Part shown: piece by piece, positions 1-64,000 of the stretch
Layout of the letters: each line of letters opens with the position of its first letter
Position numbering within the stretch: position 1 is the first letter of the stretch
DNA from: a virus
Strand: one strand, 5' to 3'
DNA length: 64,000 nt
Virus record (IMG/VR): IMGVR_UViG_3300045125_000089
Coordinates: 1 to 64,000 of that record
Made by a program: the position numbers and the translations under genes
The notes under the pieces: model-generated
What the model saw: the letters and a program-made list of their open reading frames with translations, nothing else
What the model was told of the DNA's origin: nothing
Databases searched by the model: none

Positions 1-798
1 GGATAAATCGGGGTAAATAACCATATCAGCCAGTTCCAGTAAGATTGAAACCATCTACGGTAAGCTCGGCCATTTCCTTGACACTGCGAGTAGAAACAAA
101 CTTGGACAACTTACCTTGAGACGTAAACTCGCGGTGTAGCAGCAGCAATCTCAGTAACCGCCAGCATAGTATTCATATTAGCATCTGGACAATCGGTTCT
201 TGATAAGTTCCATTTCAGTATTCTGACTCAAGAATATCAACTTCAATCTTGACGGTAAAACGGTCAAGCAAGCCTTGTCCATCACTCGAGTGGCAGTATA
301 TTCGTTACCAACATTAGCAGTAGCAATAAAGCACACGCCTTCAGCAACATGAACTTTTTCACTACCAAGCTTTTCATCCAAACGAGCATATACGCTGAAT
401 ATAATCAAGCGGGGTAAGCAAAATGTTCAAGCGTCGGGATGAGCGCGAGAAAGCTCGTCAAGATGAATGACGCTATTAGGAGTACGCAAAGCCTTGACAA
501 ACGGCGACTCATCAAAGTGTGCCAGTGTCCTTGTTGAAATGGGTATTTCCAATCAACGTGGCACGAGGGTCTTGAGTAGCACCCATGTTGAGATAGAAGT
601 ACTTGTTACGGCGACCAAGGGCATCAACAAGACATTGAATGGCAGACGTCTTACCGGACCAGACGGACCAACAATGAGGATATTCTTGCCACGCAAAGCA
701 CTGCGAACAAGATACTTCCACTTGATATCCTTCATATACAGCTTGCTGGGCTTGATGTTTGCAGCCTGCTCAATAACGGACTTGGGGTCAGTGTTCAT
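1..798 (-). CDS. MoxR/CbbQ-type AAA+ ATPase (partial)
   Basis: AAA+ ATPase of the MoxR/CbbQ type, expected to remodel a protein partner using ATP. It starts at 798 (MNTDPKSVIEQ) and runs off the left window edge. Walker A reads GPSG and then, one frame over, GKTSAIQ, so a base is missing near 657. Walker B reads HLDELSRAHPDA near 445-480. FIATANVGNEYTATR follows as the sensor 1 region. The C-terminal part is readable only with frame changes and ends in a VIYPDLS-like stretch. Similar ATPases occur in many large phages, often beside a VWA-domain partner, which is not visible here. The family call is firm; the role is unknown. Confidence 0.8.
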
Positions 799-810
799 AT
801 TCTTTTGGTC

Positions 811-828
811 TTATTCATATATATGAAC
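811..828. promoter_or_regulatory. 18-base palindromic motif upstream of the ATPase gene
   Basis: TTATTCATATATATGAAC contains the perfect palindrome TTCATATATATGAA (814-827), 15 bases upstream of the ATPase start and just after a terminator. The same 18 bases recur at 22906-22923. A promoter or operator role is inferred from position. Confidence 0.45.
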
Positions 829-854
829 AATGAACCTCTCTTTTACAAAGTCAA

Positions 855-885
855 TAAAAAAGCCCCACAAAAATGTGGGGTTTCC
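855..885 (-). terminator. Rho-independent terminator
   Basis: On the minus strand, CCCCACA, a short T-rich loop and TGTGGGG are followed by CTTTTTT. It lies after the stop of the 911-1619 gene and before the ATPase gene. Confidence 0.8.
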
Positions 886-910
886 TAAGTTATTGATTAT
901 CAATTCTCTT

Positions 911-1619
911 TTATGACTTCTTCTCTTTAAGAGCAGGTGTGTCTTTTAGTTTTACAGATAGCTTGTCTGGACTTTCTGTGCTTTTATCGTGCTTTAGATA
1001 TGCTGACTTGGCGTCTGCTTTATCTTTCAATACCTTGTCCACAATCTTTTCAATCTTGTCTACGTATACTTCCACCAAGAGCAGGAGCAACGTTCTTTGT
1101 TGATTGGTGCATTATCTTTATTTGCCTTTTCTTCTGCCTTTGATGTAGTGTCATCTGCTATTTCAACTTGCTTTTCTTCATCAACATCATCCATCTTGTC
1201 GGCTTCTTCGGCTTCTTCTTTTTCGGCTGGCTTTTTGCCAAATCCTTTAGACTTTTGTCATATGCTTTTTGAACATATGTCTTGTCTGAACTTTCTGCGT
1301 GCTGCTTTACAAGTTCCATTGCTGCTTCTAAAGATATACCACGAGCAATCTTTCTTTCAGACTCATTTGTAATAGATACAACATCATAACAATGGTCGCA
1401 GTTTTTAGCCTAGTTGAACTTCTTGATTACCTTTCATTCCCGCAGTCTTACCTGTGCCACGAATGTTTGTTACTTTTGCATCCTTGCCCATCGCCTTGGT
1501 CAATGCTTCTTCACCAGTCAAATCCTTTTTATCTGACTGAATAGGTGTACCAAACTGATTGTTGGTGATTTCTTGCAATACTAATTTTTTGATGGCTTTC
1601 TTTAAAGGTCGCGATTCAT
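911..1619 (-). CDS. Lys/Glu-rich uncharacterised phage protein
   Basis: I do not recognise this protein. Read across several one-base slips it gives about 230 residues. The N-terminal helix reads KKAIKKLVLQEI, followed by a Gly/Lys-rich segment, then ISLEAAMELVKQHAESSDK. A strongly acidic and basic low-complexity part (EKEEAEEADKMDDVDEEK) precedes a C-terminus ending LKDTPALKEKKS. The charge pattern is like T4 scaffold-core or internal head proteins, but this is only a resemblance. The N-terminal LQE matches the (I/L)xE prohead protease rule seen in other genes here. It is bounded by terminators on both sides, so it is probably its own transcription unit. Confidence 0.6.
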
Positions 1620-1640
1620 AGTTGTATATATGGTTTAATA

Positions 1641-1648
1641 TATAAATA
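1641..1648 (-). promoter_or_regulatory. Inverted TATAAATA motif
   Basis: Plus-strand TATAAATA (TATTTATA in coding direction), 21 bases upstream of the start at 1619 and directly after the 1661-1688 terminator. It is one of 12 such sites. Confidence 0.45.
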
Positions 1649-1660
1649 GTATATTGTAAT

Positions 1661-1688
1661 AAAAAACCGCCATATTACAGGCGGTTAT
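1661..1688 (-). terminator. Rho-independent terminator after nrdA
   Basis: In the coding direction, AACCGCC, an 8-base loop and GGCGGTT are followed by TTTTATT. It lies 17 bases past the nrdA stop codon. Confidence 0.85.
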
Positions 1689-1704
1689 ATATGTTTTTAT
1701 AATA

Positions 1705-3353
1705 TTATGCTTCGCAACTCTTGCATTCAAGAATGCTTCTGCCCAGTTCTTGGGCGGGATTTGTGCCTCGTTGATAATAAAGGCACTTTATGCCCTGTTC
1801 CCAAGCGAATATAACCAACTGATTTACATCTTTGACTGGTGTCTTGGGATGAATCATTAGATTTAATGATTGGCCTTGGTCAATATACCTTTGGCGAGCA
1901 GATGCTTGAATAATAACTTCTTTCTGGCTAATCTCACCAAACGTCTTGAATACGTCCTTTTCGTGTTCTGACAAGAACTCAAGGTGCTGAACCGAACCGC
2001 CCTTGAGAAGAATGCTCTTCCAAGTATCTGCATTGTTCTTGCCGTGTTTTTCAAGCACTGCTTCAAGATATGGATTGCGATAAGTAAACTTACCTTTAGC
2101 CAAGTCTTTTGTATAATAATTGCTATTCAGCGGCTCAATGCTTGGCGAAACTTGACCAAGAATGAATGAACTGCTTGTTGTTGGAGCAATCGCCATTGTA
2201 GTAACATTGCGGCGACCATATCCTTTAGCAACGGCGGTTCACCATATTCCTTGGCCATTTCTTTGCTGGCGGCATAACTCTTGTCACGAATGACCTTGTG
2301 TATTTGAGTATTTGAAGTCTTGGCTTCCAAACTCTCAAACGGAATCATTTTACTTTGCAGGAATGAATGCCATCCAAGAACACCAATACCAAGTGCTCGC
2401 TGATTCTTAGCAAATGTATGAGCAGCCTTGAGGAATGGAATATTTTCAGTTGCCTGAATATAATCTTCCATCACCGCATCAAGGAAATATGTCATTGTTT
2501 CAACAGCGTCGGTAGATTTCCAATCTTCATAATGCAGAAGATTCATAGAAGACAAGTTGCATACAAATGTTTCTTCGGCAGAAGAACTGAGGCAGATTTC
2601 AGAACATAGATTAGATGCGTGAATCTTCATCTTTTTGTCCTTATATACTTCTGGAGCATTATCATTTACATTATCACTAAAGAAGATATATGGATAGCCA
2701 GACTCAAACCGCTTCTTGAGCACTTTGGCCCAAACAGCACGAGCATCCTTGTCGCCATCAATCATCTTCTTCATAAACTTGTTGCCAACGCAAACACCAA
2801 TACTCAAGTCTTGAATAGCGTGACCTTCTTCACGAATGCCAAGAAACTCCATAATATCTGGATGTTCAATCGGAAGATATGCCGCAAAACTGCCACGTCG
2901 GACATTTGATTGTGATACTACACGAGTAACCGCATCAAACATTTCCATAAAATGGACAGGACCAGAACTTGTACCACCAACGCTAATCGGTGTACCACGA
3001 CTACGCAAGTCGCCAAAATATCCAGACGTGCCAGCACCATACTTTGTAAGCATACCAACTTCAGCGGTCTTTTCAAGAATGGCATTCATAGTGTCAGACA
3101 CATATGAACCATTGCAACTAATAGATAATCCGCGTCCATTGCCAAAGTTTGCCCAGACAGGAGATGATAATGAATACCATCCTTTGTGCATATAGGACTC
3201 AAACTTTTCAGCGAATCCTTTCTTTTTTAGAATCTTTTCCGCAGCCTTAGAAATCTCGTGGATTCTTTCTTCTGCGGTCTGCCCTTTAGGCAAATATCCT
3301 CGTTCAAGGAATGTGATGCTGTCCTTGTTCAGCCAATAAATGTCTTTGCTCAT
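1705..3353 (-). CDS. nrdA: Ribonucleoside-diphosphate reductase alpha subunit (class I NrdA)
   Basis: Large subunit of class I ribonucleotide reductase, making dNDPs from NDPs for phage DNA synthesis. It is about 550 residues, shorter than E. coli NrdA, and starts directly in the catalytic core without an ATP-cone domain. Visible catalytic parts are SCNGSY (first redox cysteine), NLCSEI (the N-x-C-x-E radical site), CLYYQRG (paired radical-transfer tyrosines) and the C-terminal CKSCEA shuttle cysteines. One base is missing near 2220: the protein leaves frame after GEPPLLK and resumes as GYGRRNVTTMAIAPT. It is followed by a terminator, and nrdB lies just upstream with a 4-base gap. All key residues survive, so the break is probably a sequencing error. 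Confidence 0.93.
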
Positions 3354-49383: not shown

Positions 49384-50140
49384 AATCCGACCTTTTCTTT
49401 GTTGCGTTATAGTTTTGTAATACTTCTGCTGCTGATAATGCTCGGTTGTACCAACAAACTTGATGCGATGTTTCCATTACCAGCCCTCGGATATGTGGAT
49501 GTGTCTTGATTTCCAGCCCGACTGCTAAAATCATTAGCCGTATTTGCGATGCTTGCGGGGCTAAGATCGTTACCTGTTTTGCATAGCGAAAGGACGCCAT
49601 TTGATAAAATATATTCAAGCTATCCAACGGTTTGGGAACAGGTGACACTTGTATTATACCGGAGCACCGTCAGATGCGTAAAGCCACCCTGCCGACTGGT
49701 CGCATCTGGAAAGTATCTTGGTATGTGAGTGCCACCGTCAGACCTAGATGCAAAATACCTTAACGTTCCACTATCGACTCTGAACAGAGATGAATATGAT
49801 TGGACCGCTCCGATCCGCCTTTATAAACCCCATAATGTGTTGAACGATCCCTAAACTACTTGCCTTTGCACCAGATGCATATGGTCCAAGGCACTTGGGT
49901 TACTTGCGTTTATTAAAGTGCAGGAGTTCCCAATGTTACATAATCATTTGTTCCATCAAAACTAAGCACACCACCATTAGCACTACTAAAGTCGGACCAT
50001 TGGTTAATGTTCCATTATTTCCATTCCTACTAACATCAGCCCAAGTACTGCTGCCGCTAACATAACTTTTATAATTACCAGCATCAAGGTATAATACCAA
50101 TCCATTACTTACTATTTTTGGACTATAATTGTGTAGACAT
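49380..50140 (-). CDS. LamG-type lectin protein, array copy 14
   Basis: Most upstream array member, directly downstream of the giant collagen-like gene. It starts MSTQL, then across a slip SPKIVSNGLVLYLDAGNYKS and YVSGSSTWADVSRNG. It ends YNRALSAAEVLQNYNATKK-RS, the array signature. About 253 codons, broken in the middle. The start lies 6 bases after the stop of the collagen-like gene, implying co-expression. Confidence 0.64.
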
Positions 50141-50145
50141 ATATT

Positions 50146-53100
50146 TTATATTTCTACTATTAGTTTTGGTATATCTTTACGTTCCGCCTGTACTAGATAA
50201 TAACAATATATATTACCATCATCGTTATTGTTGCTGATATAGATATATTCTGAGCTTGTGCTTGTTACAAACAAGTTTTGATAACTACCTATTGGTGTCA
50301 ACTGAACTGTAATAGTATTTTCATCAACTAGATTTTTCCAATAATCTGGTAATGCTATTAGTGAACTATTGGATATACCACGTACAAATACACCGTGTTC
50401 TGGACCTTCAAGCACACCATATTGTAGTTTCCTATTTTCCAACGTTGGATGGTCAATAAGGAATGACTTGGCGGTTGCGGTTAACAATCCATTTATGGCA
50501 ACTGCGCCGGTAATAAATGTAGAACCAGTAATAAATGCAGAACCAGTGACATTAAATGAACCAGATATTATAGTATTTCCAAGTATATCAAATGGTCCAT
50601 TAGCTGTAGTTTGTTTACTCCGATGCTTGTACCAGATTGATACATCACACTGTTCTCTAATCCAGTGCCTGCTCCATTTACTTTTGGTATATAATGCGGA
50701 GATGCACCGGCAACAGATGCGCCGCTGGTTCCACTAGAACCGCTCGTTCCGCTTATTCCATTTGTACCAGTGCTTCCACTTTGTCCGCTGGAACCTTGTG
50801 TGCCACTTGTACCAGATGTTCCACTACTACCAGATGAACCAGACGTTCCACTAGTACCAGATGTTCCTCTGCTACCAGATGAACCACTTGTTCCACTTGT
50901 ACCGGAAGAACCCGATGAACCACCAGACCCTCCGATTCCGCTTATACCAGAAGAGCCACTACTACCAGATGAACCGCTGGTTCCGCTTGTACCAGATGAA
51001 CCAGATGTTCCGCTTGTACCTGAAGTTCCACTGCTGCCGGATGTACCACTGGTTCCGCTTGTACCAGATGAACCTGATGAACCAGTTGCTCCACTTATTC
51101 CAGAAGAGCCACTACTACCAGACGTGCCACTGGTTCCACTTGTACCAGACGAACCAGATGTTCCGCTTGTACCTGAAGTTCCACTGCTGCCGGATGTACC
51201 ACTGGTTCCGCTTGTACCAGATGAACCTGATGAACCACCAGACCCTCCGATTCCGCTTATACCAGAAGAGCCACTACTACCAGATGTGCCACTGGTTCCA
51301 CTTGTACCAGACGAACCAGATGTTCCGCTTGTACCTGAAGTTCCACTGCTACCGGATGTACCACTGGTTCCGCTTGTACCAGATGAACCTGATGAACCAG
51401 TTGCTCCACTTATTCCAGAAGAGCCACTACTACCAGACGTGCCACTGGTTCCACTTGTACCAGATGAACCGGATGCGCCACTAGTACCAGATGTTCCTCT
51501 GCTACCAGATGAACCACTTGTTCCACTTGTACCGGAAGAACCCGATGAACCACCAGACCCTCCGATTCCGCTTATACCAGAAGAGCCACTACTACCAGAC
51601 GTACCACTGGTTCCACTTGTACCAGATGAACCGGATGTTCCGCTTGTACCTGAAGTTCCACTGCTGCCGGATGTACCACTTGTTCCACTTGTACCAGAAG
51701 AACCCGATGAACCACCAGACCCTCCGATTCCGCTTATACCAGAAGAGCCACTACTACCAGATGTGCCACTGGTTCCACTTGTACCAGACGAACCAGATGT
51801 TCCGCTTGTACCTGAAGTTCCACTGCTACCGGATGTACCACTTGTTCCACTTGTACCAGAAGAACCCGATGAACCACCAGACCCTCCGATTCCGCTTATG
51901 CCAGAAGAACCACTACTACCAGACGTACCACTGGTTCCACTTGTACCAGAAGAACCAGATGTTCCGCTTGTACCTGAAGTTCCACTGCTGCCAGATGTAC
52001 CACTAGTTCCACTTGTACCAGAAGAACCCGATGAACCAGTTGCTCCGCTTATGCCAGAAGAACCACTACTACCAGACGTACCACTGGTTCCACTTGTACC
52101 AGAAGAACCAGATGTTCCGCTTGTACCTGAAGTTCCACTGCTGCCGGATGTACCACTGGTTCCGCTTGTACCAGATGAACCTGATGAACCAGTTGCTCCA
52201 CTTATTCCAGAAGAGCCACTACTACCAGACGTGCCACTGGTTCCACTTGTACCAGATGAACCGGATGCGCCACTAGTACCAGATGTTCCTCTGCTACCAG
52301 ATGAACCACTTGTTCCACTTGTACCGGAAGAACCCGATGAACCACCAGACCCTCCGATTCCGCTTATACCAGAAGAGCCACTACTACCAGATGTGCCACT
52401 GGTTCCACTTGTACCGGATGAACCAGATGTTCCGCTTGTACCTGAAGTTCCACTGCTGCCAGATGTACCACTTGTTCCACTTGTACCAGAAGAACCCGAT
52501 GAACCACCAGACCCTCCGATTCCGCTTATGCCAGAAGAACCACTACTACCAGACGTACCACTAGTTCCACTTGTACCAGAAGAACCCGATGAACCAGTTG
52601 CTCCGCTTATGCCAGAAGAACCACTACTACCAGACGTACCACTGGTTCCACTTGTACCAGAAGAACCAGATGTTCCGCTTGTACCTGAAGTTCCACTGCT
52701 GCCGGATGTACCACTGGTTCCGCTTGTACCAGATGAACCTGATGAACCACCAGACCCTCCGATTCCGCTTATACCAGAAGAGCCACTACTACCAGATGTG
52801 CCACTGGTTCCACTTGTACCAGACGAACCAGATGTTCCGCTTGTACCTGAAGTTCCACTGCTACCGGATGTACCACTGGTTCCGCTTGTACCAGATGAAC
52901 CTGATGAACCAGTTGCTCCACTTATTCCAGAAGAGCCACTACTACCAGACGTGCCACTGGTTCCACTTGTACCAGATGAACCGGATGCGCCACTAGTACC
53001 AGATGTTCCTCTGCTACCAGATGAACCACTTGTTCCACTTGTACCGGAAGAACCCGATGAACCACCAGACCCTCCGATTCCGCTTATACCAGAAGAGCCA

Positions 53101-56100
53101 CCACTACCAGATGTGCCACTGGTTCCACTTGTACCAGATGAACCAGATGTTCCGCTTGTACCTGAAGTTCCACTGCTGCCGGATGTACCACCGGTTCCGC
53201 TTGTACCAGAAGAACCCGATGAACCACCAGACCCTCCGATTCCGCTTATACCAGAAGAGCCACTACTACCAGACGTACCACTGGTTCCACTTGTACCAGA
53301 AGAACCAGATGTTCCGCTTGTACCTGAAGTTCCACTGCTGCCAGATGTACCACTAGTTCCACTTGTACCAGAAGAACCCGATGAACCAGTTGCTCCGCTT
53401 ATGCCAGAAGAACCACTACTACCAGACGTACCACTGGTTCCACTTGTACCAGAAGAACCAGATGTTCCGCTTGTACCTGAAGTTCCACTGCTGCCGGATG
53501 TACCACTGGTTCCGCTTGTACCAGATGAACCTGATGACACCAGTTGCTCCACTTATTCCAGAAGAGCCACTACTACCAGACGTGCCACTGGTTCCACTTG
53601 TACCAGATGAACCGGATGCGCCACTAGTACCAGATGTTCCTCTGCTACCAGATGAACCACTTGTTCCACTTGTACCGGAAGAACCCGATGAACCACCAGA
53701 CCCTCCGATTCCGCTTATACCAGAAGAGCCACTACTACCAGATGTGCCACTGGTTCCACTTGTACCGGATGAACCAGATGTTCCGCTTGTACCTGAAGTT
53801 CCACTGCTGCCAGATGTACCACTTGTTCCACTTGTACCAGAAGAACCCGATGAACCACCAGACCCTCCGATTCCGCTTATGCCAGAAGAACCACTACTAC
53901 CAGACGTACCACTAGTTCCACTTGTACCAGAAGAACCCGATGAACCAGTTGCTCCGCTTATGCCAGAAGAACCACTACTACCAGACGTACCACTGGTTCC
54001 ACTTGTACCAGAAGAACCAGATGTTCCGCTTGTACCTGAAGTTCCACTGCTGCCGGATGTACCACTGGTTCCGCTTGTACCAGATGAACCTGATGAACCA
54101 CCAGACCCTCCGATTCCGCTTATACCAGAAGAGCCACTACTACCAGATGTGCCACTGGTTCCACTTGTACCAGACGAACCAGATGTTCCGCTTGTACCTG
54201 AAGTTCCACTGCTACCGGATGTACCACTGGTTCCGCTTGTACCAGATGAACCTGATGAACCAGTTGCTCCACTTATTCCAGAAGAGCCACTACTACCAGA
54301 CGTGCCACTGGTTCCACTTGTACCAGATGAACCGGATGCGCCACTAGTACCAGATGTTCCTCTGCTACCAGATGAACCACTTGTTCCACTTGTACCGGAA
54401 GAACCCGATGAACCACCAGACCCTCCGATTCCGCTTATACCAGAAGAGCCACCACTACCAGATGTGCCACTGGTTCCACTTGTACCAGATGAACCAGATG
54501 TTCCGCTTGTACCTGAAGTTCCACTGCTGCCGGATGTACCACCGGTTCCGCTTGTACCAGAAGAACCCGATGAACCACCAGACCCTCCGATTCCGCTTAT
54601 ACCAGAAGAGCCACTACTACCAGACGTACCACTGGTTCCACTTGTACCAGATGAACCAGATGTTCCGCTTGTACCTGAAGTTCCACTGCTGCCGGATGTA
54701 CCACTTGTTCCACTTGTACCAGATGAACCTGATGAACCACCAGACCCTCCGATTCCGCTTATACCAGAAGAGCCACTACTACCAGATGTGCCACTGGTTC
54801 CACTTGTACCAGATGAACCAGATGTTCCGCTTGTACCTGAAGTTCCACTGCTGCCGGATGTACCACCGGTTCCGCTTGTACCAGATGAACCTGATGAACC
54901 ACCAGACCCTCCGATTCCGCTTATACCAGAAGAGCCACTACTACCAGATGTGCCACTGGTTCCACTTGTACCAGACGAACCAGATGTTCCGCTTGTACCT
55001 GAAGTTCCACTGCTACCGGATGTACCACTGGTTCCACTTGTACCAGATGAACCGGATGCGCCACTAGTACCAGATGTTCCTCTGCTACCAGATGAACCAC
55101 TTGTTCCACTTGTACCGGAAGAACCCGATGAACCACCAGACCCTCCGATTCCGCTTATACCAGAAGAGCCACTACTACCAGACGTACCACTGGTTCCACT
55201 TGTACCAGATGAACCAGATGTTCCGCTTGTACCTGAAATTCCACTGCTGCCGGATGTACCACTGGTTCCGCTTGTACCAGATGAACCTGATGAACCAGTT
55301 GCTCCACTTATTCCAGAAGAGCCACTACTACCAGACGTGCCACTGGTTCCACTTGTACCAGATGAACCAGATGAACCACCAGACCCTCCGATTCCGCTTA
55401 TTCCTGACATTCCAGATGAACCAGAGGAACCACTTGTTCCACTAGAACCCCCAGACCCTCCTATTCCACTGATTCCACTTACTCCGGACGAACCAGAAGA
55501 GCCACTACTTCCGGATGCTCCACTTGTACCAGATGTTCCACTGCTACCAGATGTACCGCTGGTACCGCTGGTTCCGCTGGAACCTGATGAACCGCCTATA
55601 CCACTTACTCCAGAAGAACCAGAAGAACCACTGCTGCCACTTGTGCCAGATGAACCGGATGCACCGCTAGTACCAGATGTTCCACTGCTACCAGATGTAC
55701 CGCTGGTTCCGCTGGAACCTGATGAACCGCCTATACCACTTACTCCAGAAGAACCAGAAGAACCACTGCTGCCACTTGTGCCAGATGAACCGGATGCACC
55801 GCTAGTACCAGATGTTCCACTGCTACCAGATGTACCGCTGGTTCCGCTGGAACCTGATGAACCGCCTATACCACTTACTCCAGAAGAACCAGAAGAACCA
55901 CTGCTGCCACTTGTGCCAGATGAACCGGATGCACCGCTAGTACCAGATGTTCCACTGCTGCCAGATGTACCGCTGGTTCCGCTGGAACCGTTGAACCTGA
56001 TGAACCGCCTATACCACTTACTCCAGAAGAACCAGAAGAACCACTGCTGCCACTTGTGCCAGATGAACCGGATGCACCGCTAGTACCAGATGTTCCACTG

Positions 56101-57934
56101 CTACCAGATGTACCGCTGGTTCCACTGGAACCGTTGGAACCTGATGAACCGCCTATACCACTTACTCCAGAAGAACCAGAAGAACCACTGCTGCCACTTG
56201 TGCCAGATGAACCGGATGCACCGCTAGTACCAGATGTTCCACTGCTGCCAGATGTACCGCTGGTTCCACTGGAACCGTTGGAACCTGATGAACCGCCTAT
56301 ACCACTTACTCCAGAAGAACCAGAAGAACCACTGCTGCCACTTGTGCCAGATGAACCGGATGCACCGCTAGTACCAGATGTTCCACTGCTACCAGATGTA
56401 CCGCTGGTTCCACTGGAACCGTTGGAACCTGATGAACCGCCTATACCACTTACTCCAGAAGAACCAGAAGAACCACTGCTGCCACTTGTGCCAGATGAAC
56501 CGGATGCACCGCTAGTACCAGATGTTCCACTGCTACCAGATGTACCGCTGGTTCCACTGGAACCGTTGGAACCTGATGAACCGCCTATACCACTTACTCC
56601 AGAAGAACCAGAAGAACCACTGCTGCCACTTGTGCCAGATGAACCGGATGCACCGCTAGTACCAGATGTTCCACTGCTACCAGATGTACCGCTGGTTCCA
56701 CTGGAACCGTTGGAACCTGATGAACCGCCTATACCACTTACTCCAGAAGAACCAGAAGAACCACTGCTGCCACTTGTGCCAGATGAACCGGATGCACCGC
56801 TAGTACCAGATGTTCCACTGCTGCCAGATGTACCGCTGGTTCCACTGGAACCGTTGGAACCTGATGAACCGCCTATACCACTTACTCCAGAAGAACCAGA
56901 AGAACCACTGCTGCCACTTGTGCCAGATGAACCGCTTTCTCCAGACGTGCCGCTGCTGCCGGACGTGCCACTGGTTCCGCTTGAACCGTTGGAACCTGAT
57001 GAACCGCCTATACCACTTACTCCAGAAGAACCAGAAGAACCACTGCTGCCACTTGTGCCAGATGAACCGCTTTCTCCAGACGTGCCGCTGCTGCCGGACG
57101 TGCCACTGGTTCCGCTTGAACCGTTGGTTCCACTAGAACCTGCTATTCCGCTTTCGCCAGAAGAACCAGAAGAACCACTGCTGCCACTTGTGCCAGATGA
57201 ACCGCTTTCTCCAGACGTGCCGCTGCTGCCGGACGTGCCACTGGTTCCGCTTGAACCGTTGGAACCTGATGAACCGCCTATACCACTTACTCCAGAAGAA
57301 CCAGAAGAACCACTGCTGCCACTTGTGCCAGATGAACCGCTTTCTCCAGACGTGCCGCTGCTGCCGGACGTGCCACTGGTTCCGCTTGAACCGTTGGTTC
57401 CACTAGAACCTGCTATTCCGCTTTCGCCAGAAGAACCAGAAGAACCACTGCTGCCACTGTGCCAGATGAACCGCTTTCTCCAGACGTGCCGCTGCTGCCG
57501 GACGTGCCACTGGTTCCGCTTGAACCGTTGGTTCCACTAGAACCTGCTATTCCGCTTTCGCCAGAAGAACCAGAAGAACCACTGCTGCCACTTGTGCCAG
57601 ATGAACCGCTTTCTCCAGACGTGCCGCTGCTGCCGGACGTGCCACTGGTTCCGCTTGAACCAGACGAACCACTCGAACCAGATGCACCAGACGAACCACT
57701 CGCACCTTCCGCAAATAAAGCATACGAAGCAGTCAATGCCTGCAAAGAATATGAAGCTGTATATGCCCAGCTTGCGGTTGCGGCAAATGCTCCGCTTGGC
57801 AAACTTGAAGTTATTGCACCATATAAATCAGTTGTTGTCCACCAGCCAGAGCTGCTGTTGTATATAGGCACATAGTTATTTAACTTATCAGTTAATTTTA
57901 CTTCTATGGATTCTCTGCCTATTAGTCTGGCCAT
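50146..57934 (-). CDS. Giant collagen-like (Gly-X-Y) tail fibre protein
   Basis: About 2,600 residues. The N-terminal domain (MARLIGRESIEVKLTDKLNN, then TASWAYTASYSLQALTASYA) probably attaches to the virion. It is followed by roughly 770 Gly-X-Y triplets, almost all GTS, GSS, GIS, GAT, GIG or GGS, with practically no proline; at 55400-57700 GES and GIA triplets appear. The C-terminal domain (VAGASPHYIPKVNGAGTGLE, FITGSTFITGAVAINGLLTA, then FLIDHPTLENRKLQYGVLEG and PEHGVFVRGI) resembles phage fibre tips. Only a few single-base slips (near 53535, 55990, 57459 and one near 50610) interrupt 7.8 kb. It is probably a trimeric collagen-like fibre carrying the adjacent lectins or its own tip. Confidence 0.85.
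50730..57715. repeat. Hierarchical repeat region coding Gly-X-Y triplets
   Basis: A 9-base unit (one Gly-X-Y triplet) is arranged in higher-order repeats. The marker GTTCCTCTGCTACC recurs at about 50863, 51493, 52285, 53005, 53636, 54356 and 55076, at spacings of 630, 792, 720, 631, 720 and 720; all are multiples of nine apart from one extra base. In 55590-57280 the period is 135 or 144 bases. Confidence 0.85.
51910..54651. repeat. 1,350-base tandem duplication inside the collagen-like gene
   Basis: The stretch 51910-53300 recurs at 53260-54651, identical wherever I compared it except for one inserted base near 53535. The two copies are directly adjacent. It is either a very recent in-frame duplication (450 residues, 150 triplets) or an assembly duplication. 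Confidence 0.75.
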
Positions 57935-57953: not shown

Positions 57954-58310
57954 TTAGTTATTTGCGTTTTCTAATACAGATAATACAACTTGTAATGAAC
58001 CAGATTCTGCTGAAGTAACCACAAAACCATCATATCTTTCTAATACAATTTTTCCAGAAATAGGATTTAATGACTCATTTGGCGGCACAAGTGCTTCTCG
58101 TACAAGTGTTATAGCATCATTATTGCTAATAGAACCACTTTTTAATATTTTTACACTAGTAGCCTGCATGCTACTTGTAACGTTTGTAATTTGAGCAGAA
58201 AGCACAATAGAAGCAACATCAAGGTTTTCTCTATATATTATAGTACTTCCGCTGTCTAATGTAGTAGCAATAAGGCGGAACTTGTTTAGTGGTAATGTAG
58301 TTGTAGCCAT
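57954..58310 (-). CDS. Small fibre-associated structural protein
   Basis: Intact 118 residues, MATTTLPLNKFRLIATTLDS, then VLSAQITNVTSSMQATSVKI, LVREALVPPNESLNPISGKI and VLERYDGFVVTSAESGSLQV-VLSVLENANN. The pattern N.F......L, aQ..N, VPPN.aL....GK.VLE..D, and final lSvLE.aN is one I know from structural proteins of T4-like cyanophages. Its place between a beta-helix protein and the collagen fibre suggests a fibre or baseplate connector. Exact role unknown. Confidence 0.72.
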   Translation of the reverse strand: MATTTLPLNKFRLIATTLDSGSTIIYRENLDVASIVLSAQITNVTSSMQATSVKILKSGSISNNDAITLVREALVPPNESLNPISGKIVLERYDGFVVTSAESGSLQVVLSVLENANN

Positions 58311-58330: not shown

Positions 58331-60265
58331 CTATACCGATTCTAGTGCCAAATTTAACGGCACAACACGGGCAGCTATAGCTTTATTAAACGTTCTACCT
58401 TCAATAGTTCCTGTTGCTTGTTTTATTACAAAATCTGCACCTGCAAAAAAATCACCAGTTTCATCGCCAGATGTATGATATACTCTACCACCAGCCTCTT
58501 CATATATACGTATATCAAAGTTTGTTTCGCCTATTCCGCCTTGATTAACAGGCAATCCAAGAAAATTGACCCCAGAGCCCGCATATGATAAATCGTGCGA
58601 TGTAGATGTGATTAATGAGCCAAACTCTTGAAGATATTTTGGTTCAACATCTATTGCTACACTTCTTATAACATCTACTGCCAAATCAAGCATCTGACCT
58701 ATCTTATTTTTAGCATCAGTAGTCATTGAACCAAAAAGTGTATCTGGGTCATTTATAATATAATCTTTGATATATTTGTATGACGACGTATAATCTTGTG
58801 CCATATGTTTACTATCATTTACTCTAAATGCAGCTATGGCACCTTTTCTAAAATCAACAGATGCTGTAGGCAATGTATATCTTTTGTCATTTGATACATC
58901 TTGTCCTTTAAACTGACCTTGTAAAAATGTACTTGTTCTGGCGGCTTTTGGTACAAGCAAGTCGGCGGCAAGTGCTTGAATAAGTAATCCACTATCTTTG
59001 ATTGTGGATAAGTATGCAGAAGATGTTGATATAAGATATGATGAACTATACCAACCATATGTTTGCAATTCTGTCATCATATAGTTTTGTATAGATGCAC
59101 TGTTTGCCAAAAGCAAAGAAGATGCAGTAGAGTCTATAGAAGAACTAATGTTTGTAATATCAGGCACAATAAGTATTCTTGATCCAGAAGCACGCAAACC
59201 ATAATCACCAAATGTTGTATTTGAGTTAAGCAGTGAAGCGTGTCCACCGTCCATTGCAAATATGCCTACTCTGCTAAAGTTGGTAAAGAATGAAACTTGT
59301 TGTGCATATCCTCTACCACGCACACACAATCCAATACCATTGAATGCAACTTGTGTATATGCGTCTACAATCATGGAACGCAATGGACTATATCCATCAA
59401 GTACACTATCATCTACAATCATACCGCCTGGTCCATTTCCAACAAGATAATTTGGTGGACTTGAGTTTGGACTTAATGGCACATAAAACTTGCTGAACGG
59501 TGTATTGATGCAAGAACAATTTTGTATGTATGGCGAAGTTGTAATAAATGCACCGGGTTGAAATGCAAAGAAAAATCCTTTGCGTGGATTTTCTAAATCA
59601 TCAATTTCTGCACCTTCAAGACGAAGATTATATGCATAACATCCGTTATTTACTAAAAATATGTTTTCGCCTTTGGTTCCTGATGTAGGACGAATAACTG
59701 TAGTTCTTAAATCATTTCCAACAATAGAAGTCCAAGCAGGTAGAATAATTGGAGCTTCTTCTATATAATACCCACTATGTACACGTATTGTACTTCTCCA
59801 CGGACTTGAACCTGTGCTATAAAGAGAAACTGAAGCAGATACTGCCAAAGATGCTTGTTTTATTGTTCTAAATGGAGTGTTTGGTGTTCTACCGTCATTA
59901 GTATCACTGCCATTTTCTGCAACATAAAATGTTTTGTCTATTTCACCGACTCGCAATAATCCACTACCATCACCAGTAAAAGAACCGCTAAATGAGCCAG
60001 TTCTATAACTGGTTGAATTTATTATTGTCTTCCAATTGTTTGGATTATTCCAATCTGCACTGCTGCTAGTAGAACCATAATATGCATAATATTCTTGTGA
60101 GCCTGTAGCAAATACAATTGCACCAACATCTCTTTTATTTGTTGGAACAGAACCAGTATCAGATAGTTGTCCAATTGGAAATGCTACACCACGCAAACTG
60201 GTTTGTGCCATCAACGGATTGTTTGGATTATTGTGCTGTAGAATGTCTGGAAAATTTAGTGGCAT
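58331..60265 (-). CDS. Beta-helix fibre/spike structural protein
   Basis: Intact 644 residues, from MPLNFPDILQHNNPNNPLMA. After a leader mentioning VFATGSQEYYAYYGSTSSSA, the beta-helix entry KTFYVAENGSDTNDGRTPNT-PFRTIKQA is clear; this is the classic start of parallel beta-helix domains in phage fibres. The middle holds short strands (IRVHSGYYIEEAPIILPAWT, GGMIVDDSVLDGYSPLRSMI). The C-terminus (GLPVNQGGIGETNFDIRIYE, VYHTSGDETGDFFAGADFVI-KQATGTIEGRTFNKAI) matches structural proteins of T4-like cyanophages. Likely a tail or baseplate-associated spike; no catalytic residues identified. Confidence 0.78.
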   Translation of the reverse strand: MPLNFPDILQHNNPNNPLMAQTSLRGVAFPIGQLSDTGSVPTNKRDVGAIVFATGSQEYYAYYGSTSSSADWNNPNNWKTIINSTSYRTGSFSGSFTGDGSGLLRVGEIDKTFYVAENGSDTNDGRTPNTPFRTIKQASLAVSASVSLYSTGSSPWRSTIRVHSGYYIEEAPIILPAWTSIVGNDLRTTVIRPTSGTKGENIFLVNNGCYAYNLRLEGAEIDDLENPRKGFFFAFQPGAFITTSPYIQNCSCINTPFSKFYVPLSPNSSPPNYLVGNGPGGMIVDDSVLDGYSPLRSMIVDAYTQVAFNGIGLCVRGRGYAQQVSFFTNFSRVGIFAMDGGHASLLNSNTTFGDYGLRASGSRILIVPDITNISSSIDSTASSLLLANSASIQNYMMTELQTYGWYSSSYLISTSSAYLSTIKDSGLLIQALAADLLVPKAARTSTFLQGQFKGQDVSNDKRYTLPTASVDFRKGAIAAFRVNDSKHMAQDYTSSYKYIKDYIINDPDTLFGSMTTDAKNKIGQMLDLAVDVIRSVAIDVEPKYLQEFGSLITSTSHDLSYAGSGVNFLGLPVNQGGIGETNFDIRIYEEAGGRVYHTSGDETGDFFAGADFVIKQATGTIEGRTFNKAIAARVVPLNLALESV

Positions 60266-60269
60266 AAAC

Positions 60270-61966
60270 TTATGATATTGCTAATGTTGTTCCGCTTGAA
60301 AAAGCTTTATCTGAATTTGATTTATAAACACGAACAGACACAGATGCTCCGTATGAATTGTTTATGGTATAATCTCCAAGTTTTGTGAATGCAGTCAATA
60401 CAGGCAATGCTCCATTTTGTATGATTGTACTTAAATCACCATATGACGCAGGATATAGTATGTATGTATAATTTCCAAGTACGTCGTTTGCCGCACTACA
60501 AGTTGCAGTCCATACTCTATTATCATCAAGCAATGAATCAACAACATCAGAATTTATTACAGATTGTGCTGTGGCGTTTGATGTTATATCTGTAGAACTT
60601 GCTGCCAAATAATTTCTGAACCTAAATGAGACAGAAGTAGATGTTCCGGTAATAAACGTTCCTATATCTGAACGTTTTCCATTTACTGCAAACGTTACTG
60701 TTCCACCAGAAGTTGCTCTGTTGATAGTATATGTGCTGCCAACAGAAAGAGTATTTGTTCCGGCAGGTAAACCGGCATCTCCAAAATAATAATTCAATGT
60801 ACCAACATCAGCTCCAGTTGAAGACCAGCTTGAACTTATTGGTCCAATTCCACCTAGGACTATCAACACCTACGCTAAATGATGCGGTATTTACTTGGAA
60901 TGAATTATTAACATCTCTTGTTGCCGCTAGAAATTGTGGAACCAAACAAGCGCATGCTCAATGAAGACAATGTAGGCGGAGTGTATGCAATAAGCATTGT
61001 TCGTAAAATATCTTCAATTGTAGAACCAGAATCTATTGTTATTCCAGAAATAATTCCACCAACATTTTGATTTGGTGTAATTGATTGTTGTAATATTGTG
61101 GCAGAAGATGTGGATATAGACCCAGTTATATGGTCTAAGTACAGTAAGAGACCCAGTTATTACAGCACTGCCACTTACTGATATAGTAAGACCATTATCG
61201 TATACAATACTTTGTACTAAAGATGTACCACCAGCCGATGCTTTTACTAAATAATTTTCACTTGCACCAATTGTCGGACTAGTGCCACTTGTACCACTTA
61301 CACCGCTAGTTCCGCTGCTTCCGCTAGTTCCGCTACTTCCGCTGGTTCCACTCGTACCACTAGTGCCACTGGTACCCGAACTACCTCTTGCTCCACTGCT
61401 TCCGCTTGAACCACTATTTCCACTTGTTCCGCTACTGCCACTGGTTCCTCCAGTCCCACTCGTTCCAGAAGTACCACTAGTACCAGAACTTCCTTGCGTT
61501 CCACTGGTTCCACTACTTCCTGCCTGCCCACTTTGACCCGCTGGTTCCACTTGTTCCACTCGTACCACTAGTTCCAGAACTTCCTCGTGTTCCACTCGTA
61601 CCACTAGTCCCAGATTGTCCGCTTGTACCACTCTGTCCACTTGTTCCACTGGTGCCACTCAGTACCGGAACTTCCACGAGTGCCACTGGTTCCACTTGTT
61701 CCCACTAGTTCCGGAACTACCATTGCTACCGGATGAACCATTGAACCCACTGCCTCCACCGCCAGAACCGTTTAATGCATACGACGCGGTTAATGCATAT
61801 GATGCACTTATAACCGAAACACTGGGTGGCAAGATAGTAGACCCCGTAACTGTACCGTCGGAGCAGTTTGTAATATAAGATTGCTACCACTTACATATAC
61901 TTCTTCAAAGTCAGACCCCGCAGCGTTGCGTTGCGTAAAATAAATAGCTTTTGGGTCAAGACTCAT
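60270..61966 (-). CDS. Second collagen-like fibre protein
   Basis: About 565 residues. The start MSLDPKAIYFTQRNAAGSDF at 61966 is followed by VISASYALTASYALNGSGGG and then about 100 Gly-X-Y triplets (GTS, GSS, GQS, GTR, GNS, GAR) at about 61290-61740. The next segment reads GASENYLVKASAGGTSLVQS and IVYDNGLTISVSGSAVITGS. The C-terminal domain is GTFITGTSTSVSFRFRNYLA to YILYPASYGDLSTIIQNGAL and NNSYGASVSVRVYKSNSDKA. Slips near 61865, 61715, 61670, 61545, 61135, 60945 and 60860 break it. The architecture parallels the giant gene at 50146-57934 with a different tip. Confidence 0.72.
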
Positions 61967-62709: not shown

Positions 62710-64000
62710 TCAATATCCAACACTGCCCGTTAAATTATCGGTTCCCAAATTGGATAATGAAATTGTTAATGCATCGCTGGCAACATTTCCATATACTTTG
62801 TTATATATAGAGCTTGATTCCAACTAACACTTGAGTGCTACCTCCGCGGAATATATTTCCAGTGATGATATTAGCGGAGCCACTATATCCTCCAATATAA
62901 ATAGAAGGAGCACTACCGGCATTAAATATTGTATTTCCAATAAATGTACCTTCGTGTGCATTTGCGCCACGAATAACAGAGCCAGTATTATCGCTAATCA
63001 AAAAGTTGTTACTGATATAATGACCTTGAACGTTTTCTAACCACAGCGCACTACCAGAATTTCGTGAATCAATGTGACTATTATTAAAGAGTCAGTAATA
63101 CGATTCTTCCTGCAATTGGACGATTTGCCCAATCGTATGAATTGAATGGCGCAGCAAGAATGATTTATTTCCTTTGGCATATACACCATATACAACCGGA
63201 ACCATATATATTTGATTTAACAACAATCCTTCAGTGTTTTGTCCGGTGGAGGTATAGTCAACAGAGTTTATAGATATACCTGTTTTCCAGAAATTAAACT
63301 GCGATTGATTGATGGTTCCGTTTATACACAATCTTCTTAACTCTAGACCTGTTCCTTGATAAAATGAACCAAGCGGTCTACCAACAATCATACAATTTGT
63401 AATTCTGAAATTCCACGCTGATTCTAATATAATTCCGTTTGACCAATAATTTGAATTGTCGGAAAGAATATGAACATCATTTAAATCCACAGAAACATTT
63501 TCGTGAGCAGATTGACTTGATGTACCATATGTTATGTATATAGAAGAAGATGATGCGCCGGATGTAGTAAGGCCCAATCCTCGTATAGATACTTGATAAA
63601 TCTGGTCATCAAGTCCTCCATTGTCCATATTAAATTCTATACCATTTACGTTGGCGGTTTGTTTTATAATTGAAACGTTGGAACCATTTCCTACCAATGC
63701 AATATCGCATTGTGGATTTGATACAAGAGTCAAAGAGCCGGTAATTACATACGTTCCGTCAGGAAAATATACTGTACCTCTTCCAGATGCTTGTGAGGCT
63801 GAGATTGCAAGCAAAATTGCATTTGTATCATTTGTTGAACCATTTCCAATTGCACCATAATCTTTTACGTTATATGCAAAATTTGTATTTGCGCGCGCCG
63901 CATAAGAACTTGTGGTTGAACTCAAAGCATATGAACTTGTAGTTGAATTTAGTGCATAAGATGCAGTAACGGCGTTGGTAGCACTACCACTCAAAGAGCC
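62710..64000 (-). CDS. Pectate-lyase-fold tail spike (partial)
   Basis: Right-handed beta-helix spike whose start lies beyond the right window edge. The N-terminal linker has ASYALNSTTSSYALSSTT repeats. The fold signature is FAYNVKDYGAIGNGSTNDTN followed by AILLAISASQ and GTVYFPDGTYVITGSLTLVS, the pectate lyase superfamily entry found in phage depolymerase spikes. Rungs follow (NSNYWSNGIILESAWNFRIT, NCMIVGRPLG). After slips near 63150 and 63090 the protein continues VQGHYISNNFLISDNTGSVI and IYIGGYSGSANIITGNIFRG, and ends NLGTDNLTGSVGY. At least 425 residues are visible. Polysaccharide cleavage is possible but not shown. Confidence 0.8.

Follow-up and report, generated by a model that had tools for sequence, protein, structure and literature searches.

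A proline-free Gly-X-Y array of several hundred triplets in a probable tail fiber gene of a T4-like aquatic myovirus

The imino acids proline and hydroxyproline in the X or Y position of Gly-X-Y triplets are the usual stabilizer of collagen but do not strictly define it. Among phage proteins built on such triplets, EPclA-D, encoded by prophages of Escherichia coli O157, are likely trimeric side-tail proteins that have been purified and studied; in these proteins, a Gly-X-Y region lies between the non-collagen end domains PfN and PfC, proline occupies nearly half of the X positions, and charged residues are strongly preferred (PMC3368898). Collagen repeats have also been reported among the putative receptor-binding proteins of pelagimyophage genomes (PMC7029224), and in bacterial collagens, threonine is favored in the Y position (PMC8968730). 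Our literature search found no paper on a Gly-Thr-Ser phage collagen. The gene described here resembles those of EPclA-D in that it apparently encodes a phage fiber whose Gly-X-Y region is flanked by non-collagen domains, and differs from them in composition and in its end domains.

The analyzed window covers the initial 64,000 of the 96,698 bases of a metagenomic IMG/VR virus contig. This contig encodes a T4-type Gp23 major capsid protein, a terminase and a prohead protease. A syntenic relative encodes a tail sheath resembling those of Microcystis phage Mel-JY01 and Flavobacterium phage immuto; it also has a match to a baseplate hub and a weak one to a tape measure. The contig is that of a T4-like aquatic myovirus. 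The array belongs to a neighborhood of tail structural genes: upstream of it on the minus strand are a gene of phrog_1276 (unknown function; 57954..58310) and a tail-fiber or baseplate-wedge-like gene (58331..60265) that matches phrog_17885 (tail fiber, 8e-39), phrog_13163 (baseplate wedge) and cyanophage tail fibers.

Glycine is encoded at each third codon through 777 triplets of the minus strand (57706-50715), which the frame map of the window divides into four blocks separated by frame shifts. Block 1 (57455..57706; 28 triplets) is in the same frame as the N-terminus; block 2 (55989..57455; 163 triplets) consists mostly of 48-aa units (TRF period 144); in block 3 (53533..55989; 273 triplets), units of 48/45 aa give way to units of 51/54 aa near position 55450; and block 4 (50715..53531; 313 triplets) is made of 51/54-aa units. 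The 774 complete in-frame triplets include 315 GTS, 291 GSS, 33 GIS, 32 GIG, 22 GSG, 19 GAS, 13 GVS and 11 GAT. Position X is occupied by serine (42.5%) or threonine (41.7%) in 84% of the triplets and position Y in 90%, almost always by serine (88.1%, with 1.6% threonine), whereas none of the 2,322 residues is proline and only 16 are charged. These values bear out the initial annotation, which had counted about 770 triplets, mostly Gly-Thr-Ser and Gly-Ser-Ser, with no proline. All four glycine, all four threonine and all six serine codons are in use. The array cannot be attributed to chance because the longest run of GG at every ninth base in 200 shuffled windows is 4. Long antisense ORFs on the plus strand (up to 946 aa) merely mirror the GGN repeat and were set aside, and no other contig carrying exactly this array turned up in a scan with a DNA pattern specific to its units.

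Matches to the Pfam Collagen family (PF01391) score above the family cut-off along the array. The protein shares with this family glycine at each third residue over a long stretch, provided that three single-base indels within the array are allowed for, and departs from it in the lack of proline and in having threonine in X and serine in Y, so that a triple helix is only putative. Because the usual, although not strictly defining, imino acids are missing from X and Y, the protein can be classed as collagen-like by pattern only. Comparison of the repeat units of 51 and 54 aa yields pN/pS of 0.03 and 0.09, a strong constraint; repeat pairs are non-independent, but the direction of these values is clear, with the protein conserved and its codons drifting.

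In agreement with the initial annotation, the array is flanked by non-repetitive N- and C-terminal parts. The N-terminal domain (57707..57934, minus strand) starts with the ATG at 57934 of an ORF spanning 57413-57934, comprises about 76 aa and ends in ...ATASWAYTASYSLQALTASYALFAE; an IMG/VR search found no relatives of this stretch. Of the 172 ORFs sampled in the census below, only 3 have a [ST]ASYA motif before the array, and the motif was rejected for this reason as a general trimerization element. On the C-terminal side, a linker (VAGASPHYIPKVNGAGTGLENSVMYQSGT...; 50609..50714, minus strand) is nearly identical in an independent contig, IMGVR_UViG_3300032293_001310, the nearest relative found, which has the same 3' junction and tip and starts within a proline-free Gly-X-Y run (locus L011). 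The C-terminal part proper (50146..50612, minus strand; stop at 50148-50146) consists of a beta-rich linker and a tip domain, with the sequence KSFLIDHPT...EGPEHGVFVRG...LPDYW...ERKDIPKL. In the relative, the Gly-X-Y run and the tip of ORF 3-3086 are separated by beta-rich repeats that add about 740 residues and are absent in the window; either modular insertion or loss could account for this difference.

The tip domain of about 110 aa matches PHROG 17490 and 28536 and is shared with phage fiber proteins, with relatives at 34 IMG/VR loci and in 45 phage records, mostly of Synechococcus phages but including Flavobacterium phage immuto. In the AlphaFold model, which is beta-rich, residues 50-120 mostly have pLDDT above 90, and the best viral matches in the fold search, 54-56% identical, are phage proteins such as A0A6J5MBD4 and A0A6J5KP48 of UniProt, both recorded as 'Collagen triple helix repeat [uncultured Caudovirales phage]' and compared here by tip and record name. 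Searches with the tip yielded no significant Pfam family and no significant sequence relative in PDB; weak PDB fold matches (best E 0.098) to a cyanophage Pam1 tailspike domain, the phi297 tailspike and R-pyocin fiber tips are suggestive of a fiber tip and were not counted as evidence. The tip (window 50149-50544), which occurs broadly among cyanophages and further phages of aquatic habitats but is absent from Pfam, is a candidate new family. In phage immuto, the 'putative tail fiber-like protein' QQO92136.1 has a C-terminal tip 55% identical to that of the window and lies in a structural-gene neighborhood, and the tail sheath is similar as well; however, QQO92136.1, with a CDS of 1,764 bp (about 587 aa), is too short to contain an array as long as the present one.

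Taken together, the Pfam Collagen matches, the tail-gene context and the tip shared with tail-fiber-like proteins support the earlier proposal of a collagen-patterned, proline-free phage fiber. The locus probably represents a single gene, which encodes a long tail or side fiber of this T4-like aquatic myovirus. In the virus, the gene would be a continuous ORF of about 2,600 aa, and the frame changes would be errors of the contig. The short N-terminal part would attach the fiber to the virion and help it to trimerize, about 630-780 Gly-X-Y triplets would form an extended three-chain shaft, and the beta-rich tip would trimerize and touch the host surface, possibly contacting a receptor. A shaft forming an unbroken triple helix would measure about 0.54-0.67 micrometer, calculated for 777 triplets as 2,331 residues x 0.286 nm, and a fiber exceeding half a micrometer might be stabilized by threonine and serine side chains or by sugars, as had been suggested in the initial annotation. 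A scan of ten of the larger ORFs downstream found no sugar-transfer genes. Fibers of half a micrometer, if true, would give a longer reach to a sparse aquatic host.

The initial annotation further held that collagen segments of phages are usually short and contain proline, a generalization that, for environmental phages, does not survive a census of IMG/VR. A first scan, for runs of at least 65 consecutive triplets selected on glycine only, yielded at least 120 loci; a second scan was aimed at Y positions of the Ser/Thr type and is accordingly biased to these residues in Y. The two scans together supplied a non-exhaustive sample of 172 loci. Proline is below 1% in 88 of these, and 57 of the 88, a third of the sample, are more than 70% serine and threonine. 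Notable loci include a proline-free, single-frame run of 785 uninterrupted triplets in L150 (IMGVR_UViG_3300034062_003964), the examined stretch of which is open at both ends, and one of 612 in L227 (IMGVR_UViG_3300007541_007780), open at its 3' end. Two loci join arrays of this kind in a single frame to the tip of the window, namely L041 (2,813 aa), with a low-proline Gly-X-Y region of about 696 triplets with interruptions, and L223, with 88 triplets. All four loci resemble the window in being proline-free or nearly so and of the Gly-(Thr/Ser)-Ser type, and differ from it in contig, flanks and codon usage. Given how frequent proline-free, Ser/Thr-rich arrays are in the sample, the fiber of the window is not exceptional and is a large member of a class common in environmental phages.

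Unexpectedly, the position of threonine differs between most arrays of this class and most proline-containing ones. In the proline-free, Ser/Thr-rich arrays, the median content of threonine is 44% in X and 1.1% in Y, with X exceeding Y in 52 of the 57 ORFs, whereas arrays with at least 5% proline have 37% threonine in Y and 1.3% in X, with X exceeding Y in only 3 of 54. The same holds in the first scan alone, where selection was on glycine only (threonine higher in X in 23 of 27 proline-free, Ser/Thr-rich arrays versus 2 of 52 proline-containing ones). The placement in the window is the opposite of that reported for bacterial collagens. The switch of threonine between X and Y in phage arrays, which could reflect either shared ancestry or a structural rule, is the most interesting outcome of the analysis and is worth pursuing; the Thr-in-X rule offers a direct peptide test. 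We put forward, tentatively, a distinct class in environmental tailed phages, with proline-free Gly-(Thr/Ser)-Ser shafts of up to at least 785 triplets in which threonine is confined to X and serine to Y; these may be collagen-like or a non-collagen triplet fiber, with a stabilizing rule that does not involve imino acids and fibers that could exceed half a micrometer. Provided that shafts of this kind fold, nature would offer triplet fibers that are both proline-free and unhydroxylated, informative on what the collagen helix needs and on the design of simple fibrous proteins.

The same pattern bears on whether the shaft is a collagen triple helix, which is not assured because proline is lacking and threonine is in X. 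The fiber could be real and yet have a shaft of another kind, a polyglycine-II-like bundle or a flexible, hydrated and perhaps glycosylated tether. The complete lack of proline in 774 triplets, the near absence of charge and the abundance of threonine in X (0.417) with its scarcity in Y (0.016), a placement reversed in 51 of the 54 proline-containing phage arrays and in bacterial collagens (PMC8968730), speak for such a shaft; however, the strict glycine periodicity across hundreds of triplets and the Pfam Collagen matches suit a triple helix, and animal collagens tolerate short proline-free stretches (PMC13138384). We regard a shaft of this other kind as rather unlikely.

A near-exact tandem duplication (51910..54651, minus strand) pairs 54651-53260 with 53300-51910: the exact-repeat scan finds 1113 + 278 identical bases at offsets 1351/1350, or 1,391 in all, with one indel between the two parts. 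The duplicated block measures 1,351 nt (about 1.35 kb). Either a recent duplication or doubling in assembly would produce such a block, and because it is near-exact, the length of the array is uncertain by about 150 triplets (possibly about 627 to 777). An array far shorter in the virus, expanded by assembly through near-identical repeats, would in addition fit the other exact repeats, which reach 439 nt, and the contig of the relative, which ends within its own array. Wholesale artificial copying is, however, at odds with the synonymous differences carried by the two sub-arrays and by many units, and long arrays exist elsewhere in non-repetitive form: at the DNA level, the single-frame runs of 612 and 785 triplets are nearly devoid of repeated 60-mers. 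We judge a drastically shortened array to be unlikely.

With regard to the reading frame, the initial annotation spoke of one minus-strand gene, but no single ORF spans the array; four frame changes lie between start and stop, the frames had been joined without mention, and one intact gene in the contig is ruled out by the frame map. At the first break (57456..57466, near 57460), a base is missing, with CACAAGTGG in other copies and CACAGTGG here; at the second (55989..55999, near 55993), a base is likewise missing (TTCCAACGG -> TTCAACGG); the third (53532..53540, near 53537) has an extra base (GGTTCATC -> GGTGTCATC), which is the sole difference between the duplicated copies at that site. The fourth (50600..50614, about 50608) lies outside the array, which it separates from the C-terminal domain, and lacks an A before CTACAGCT relative to L011 (GVNKTAANSSFDILG). 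All four are on the minus strand; the first three each differ by one base from neighboring repeat copies, and the fourth differs by one base from L011.

A contig-wide comparison with the same relative finds orthologs that have a single ORF there split into 2-7 frames in the contig of the window; ribonucleotide reductase is among the split genes, its pieces being 97-98% identical. Over 23 kb, the alignment contains 363 gaps, 314 of 1 base and only 3 of 3 bases; many gaps in low-identity regions are presumably alignment noise, but genuine coding divergence would favor multiples of three. Because the whole contig is frame-broken relative to an intact relative and the repeat copies are strongly constrained at the protein level, assembly error is almost certainly the source of the four frame changes. 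We infer that the contig is error-prone throughout, like unpolished long-read assemblies; the reading frame and repeat number of the virus given here are presumed ones. An error model alone does not account for the low indel density in the array, with 3 indels in 7 kb of the repeat block against 64 non-triplet gaps in 9 kb of the best-aligned region elsewhere. The four frame changes within one stretch could in principle be genuine, marking a degenerating array or a phase-variable fiber switched by frame slippage in the repeats, but this is highly improbable and was rejected, given that unrelated conserved genes are broken alike in the contig and intact in the relative, that 1-base gaps outnumber 3-base gaps by 314 to 3, that the repeat units are strongly constrained and that the fourth break is outside the array. 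Conserved genes are frame-broken throughout window positions 1-50000 as well, and because of such breaks, annotation of this contig by ORF calling is unreliable.

Further proline-free Gly-X-Y stretches, also frame-broken, are located at window positions 61278-61656 and at contig positions 67959-71389 (68.0-71.4 kb; L009), and because of them the phage probably has several collagen-like fiber genes. Repeated gene pieces (GLVLYLDAGNYKSYVSG...) occur at window positions 49937-50145 and in several places between 38 and 50 kb; they have similar counterparts in several ORFs of the relative and may correspond to a LamG/concanavalin-type module, which they resemble. An ORF at 63092-63994 is similar to pectate lyase (PF12708) and of the tail-spike type.
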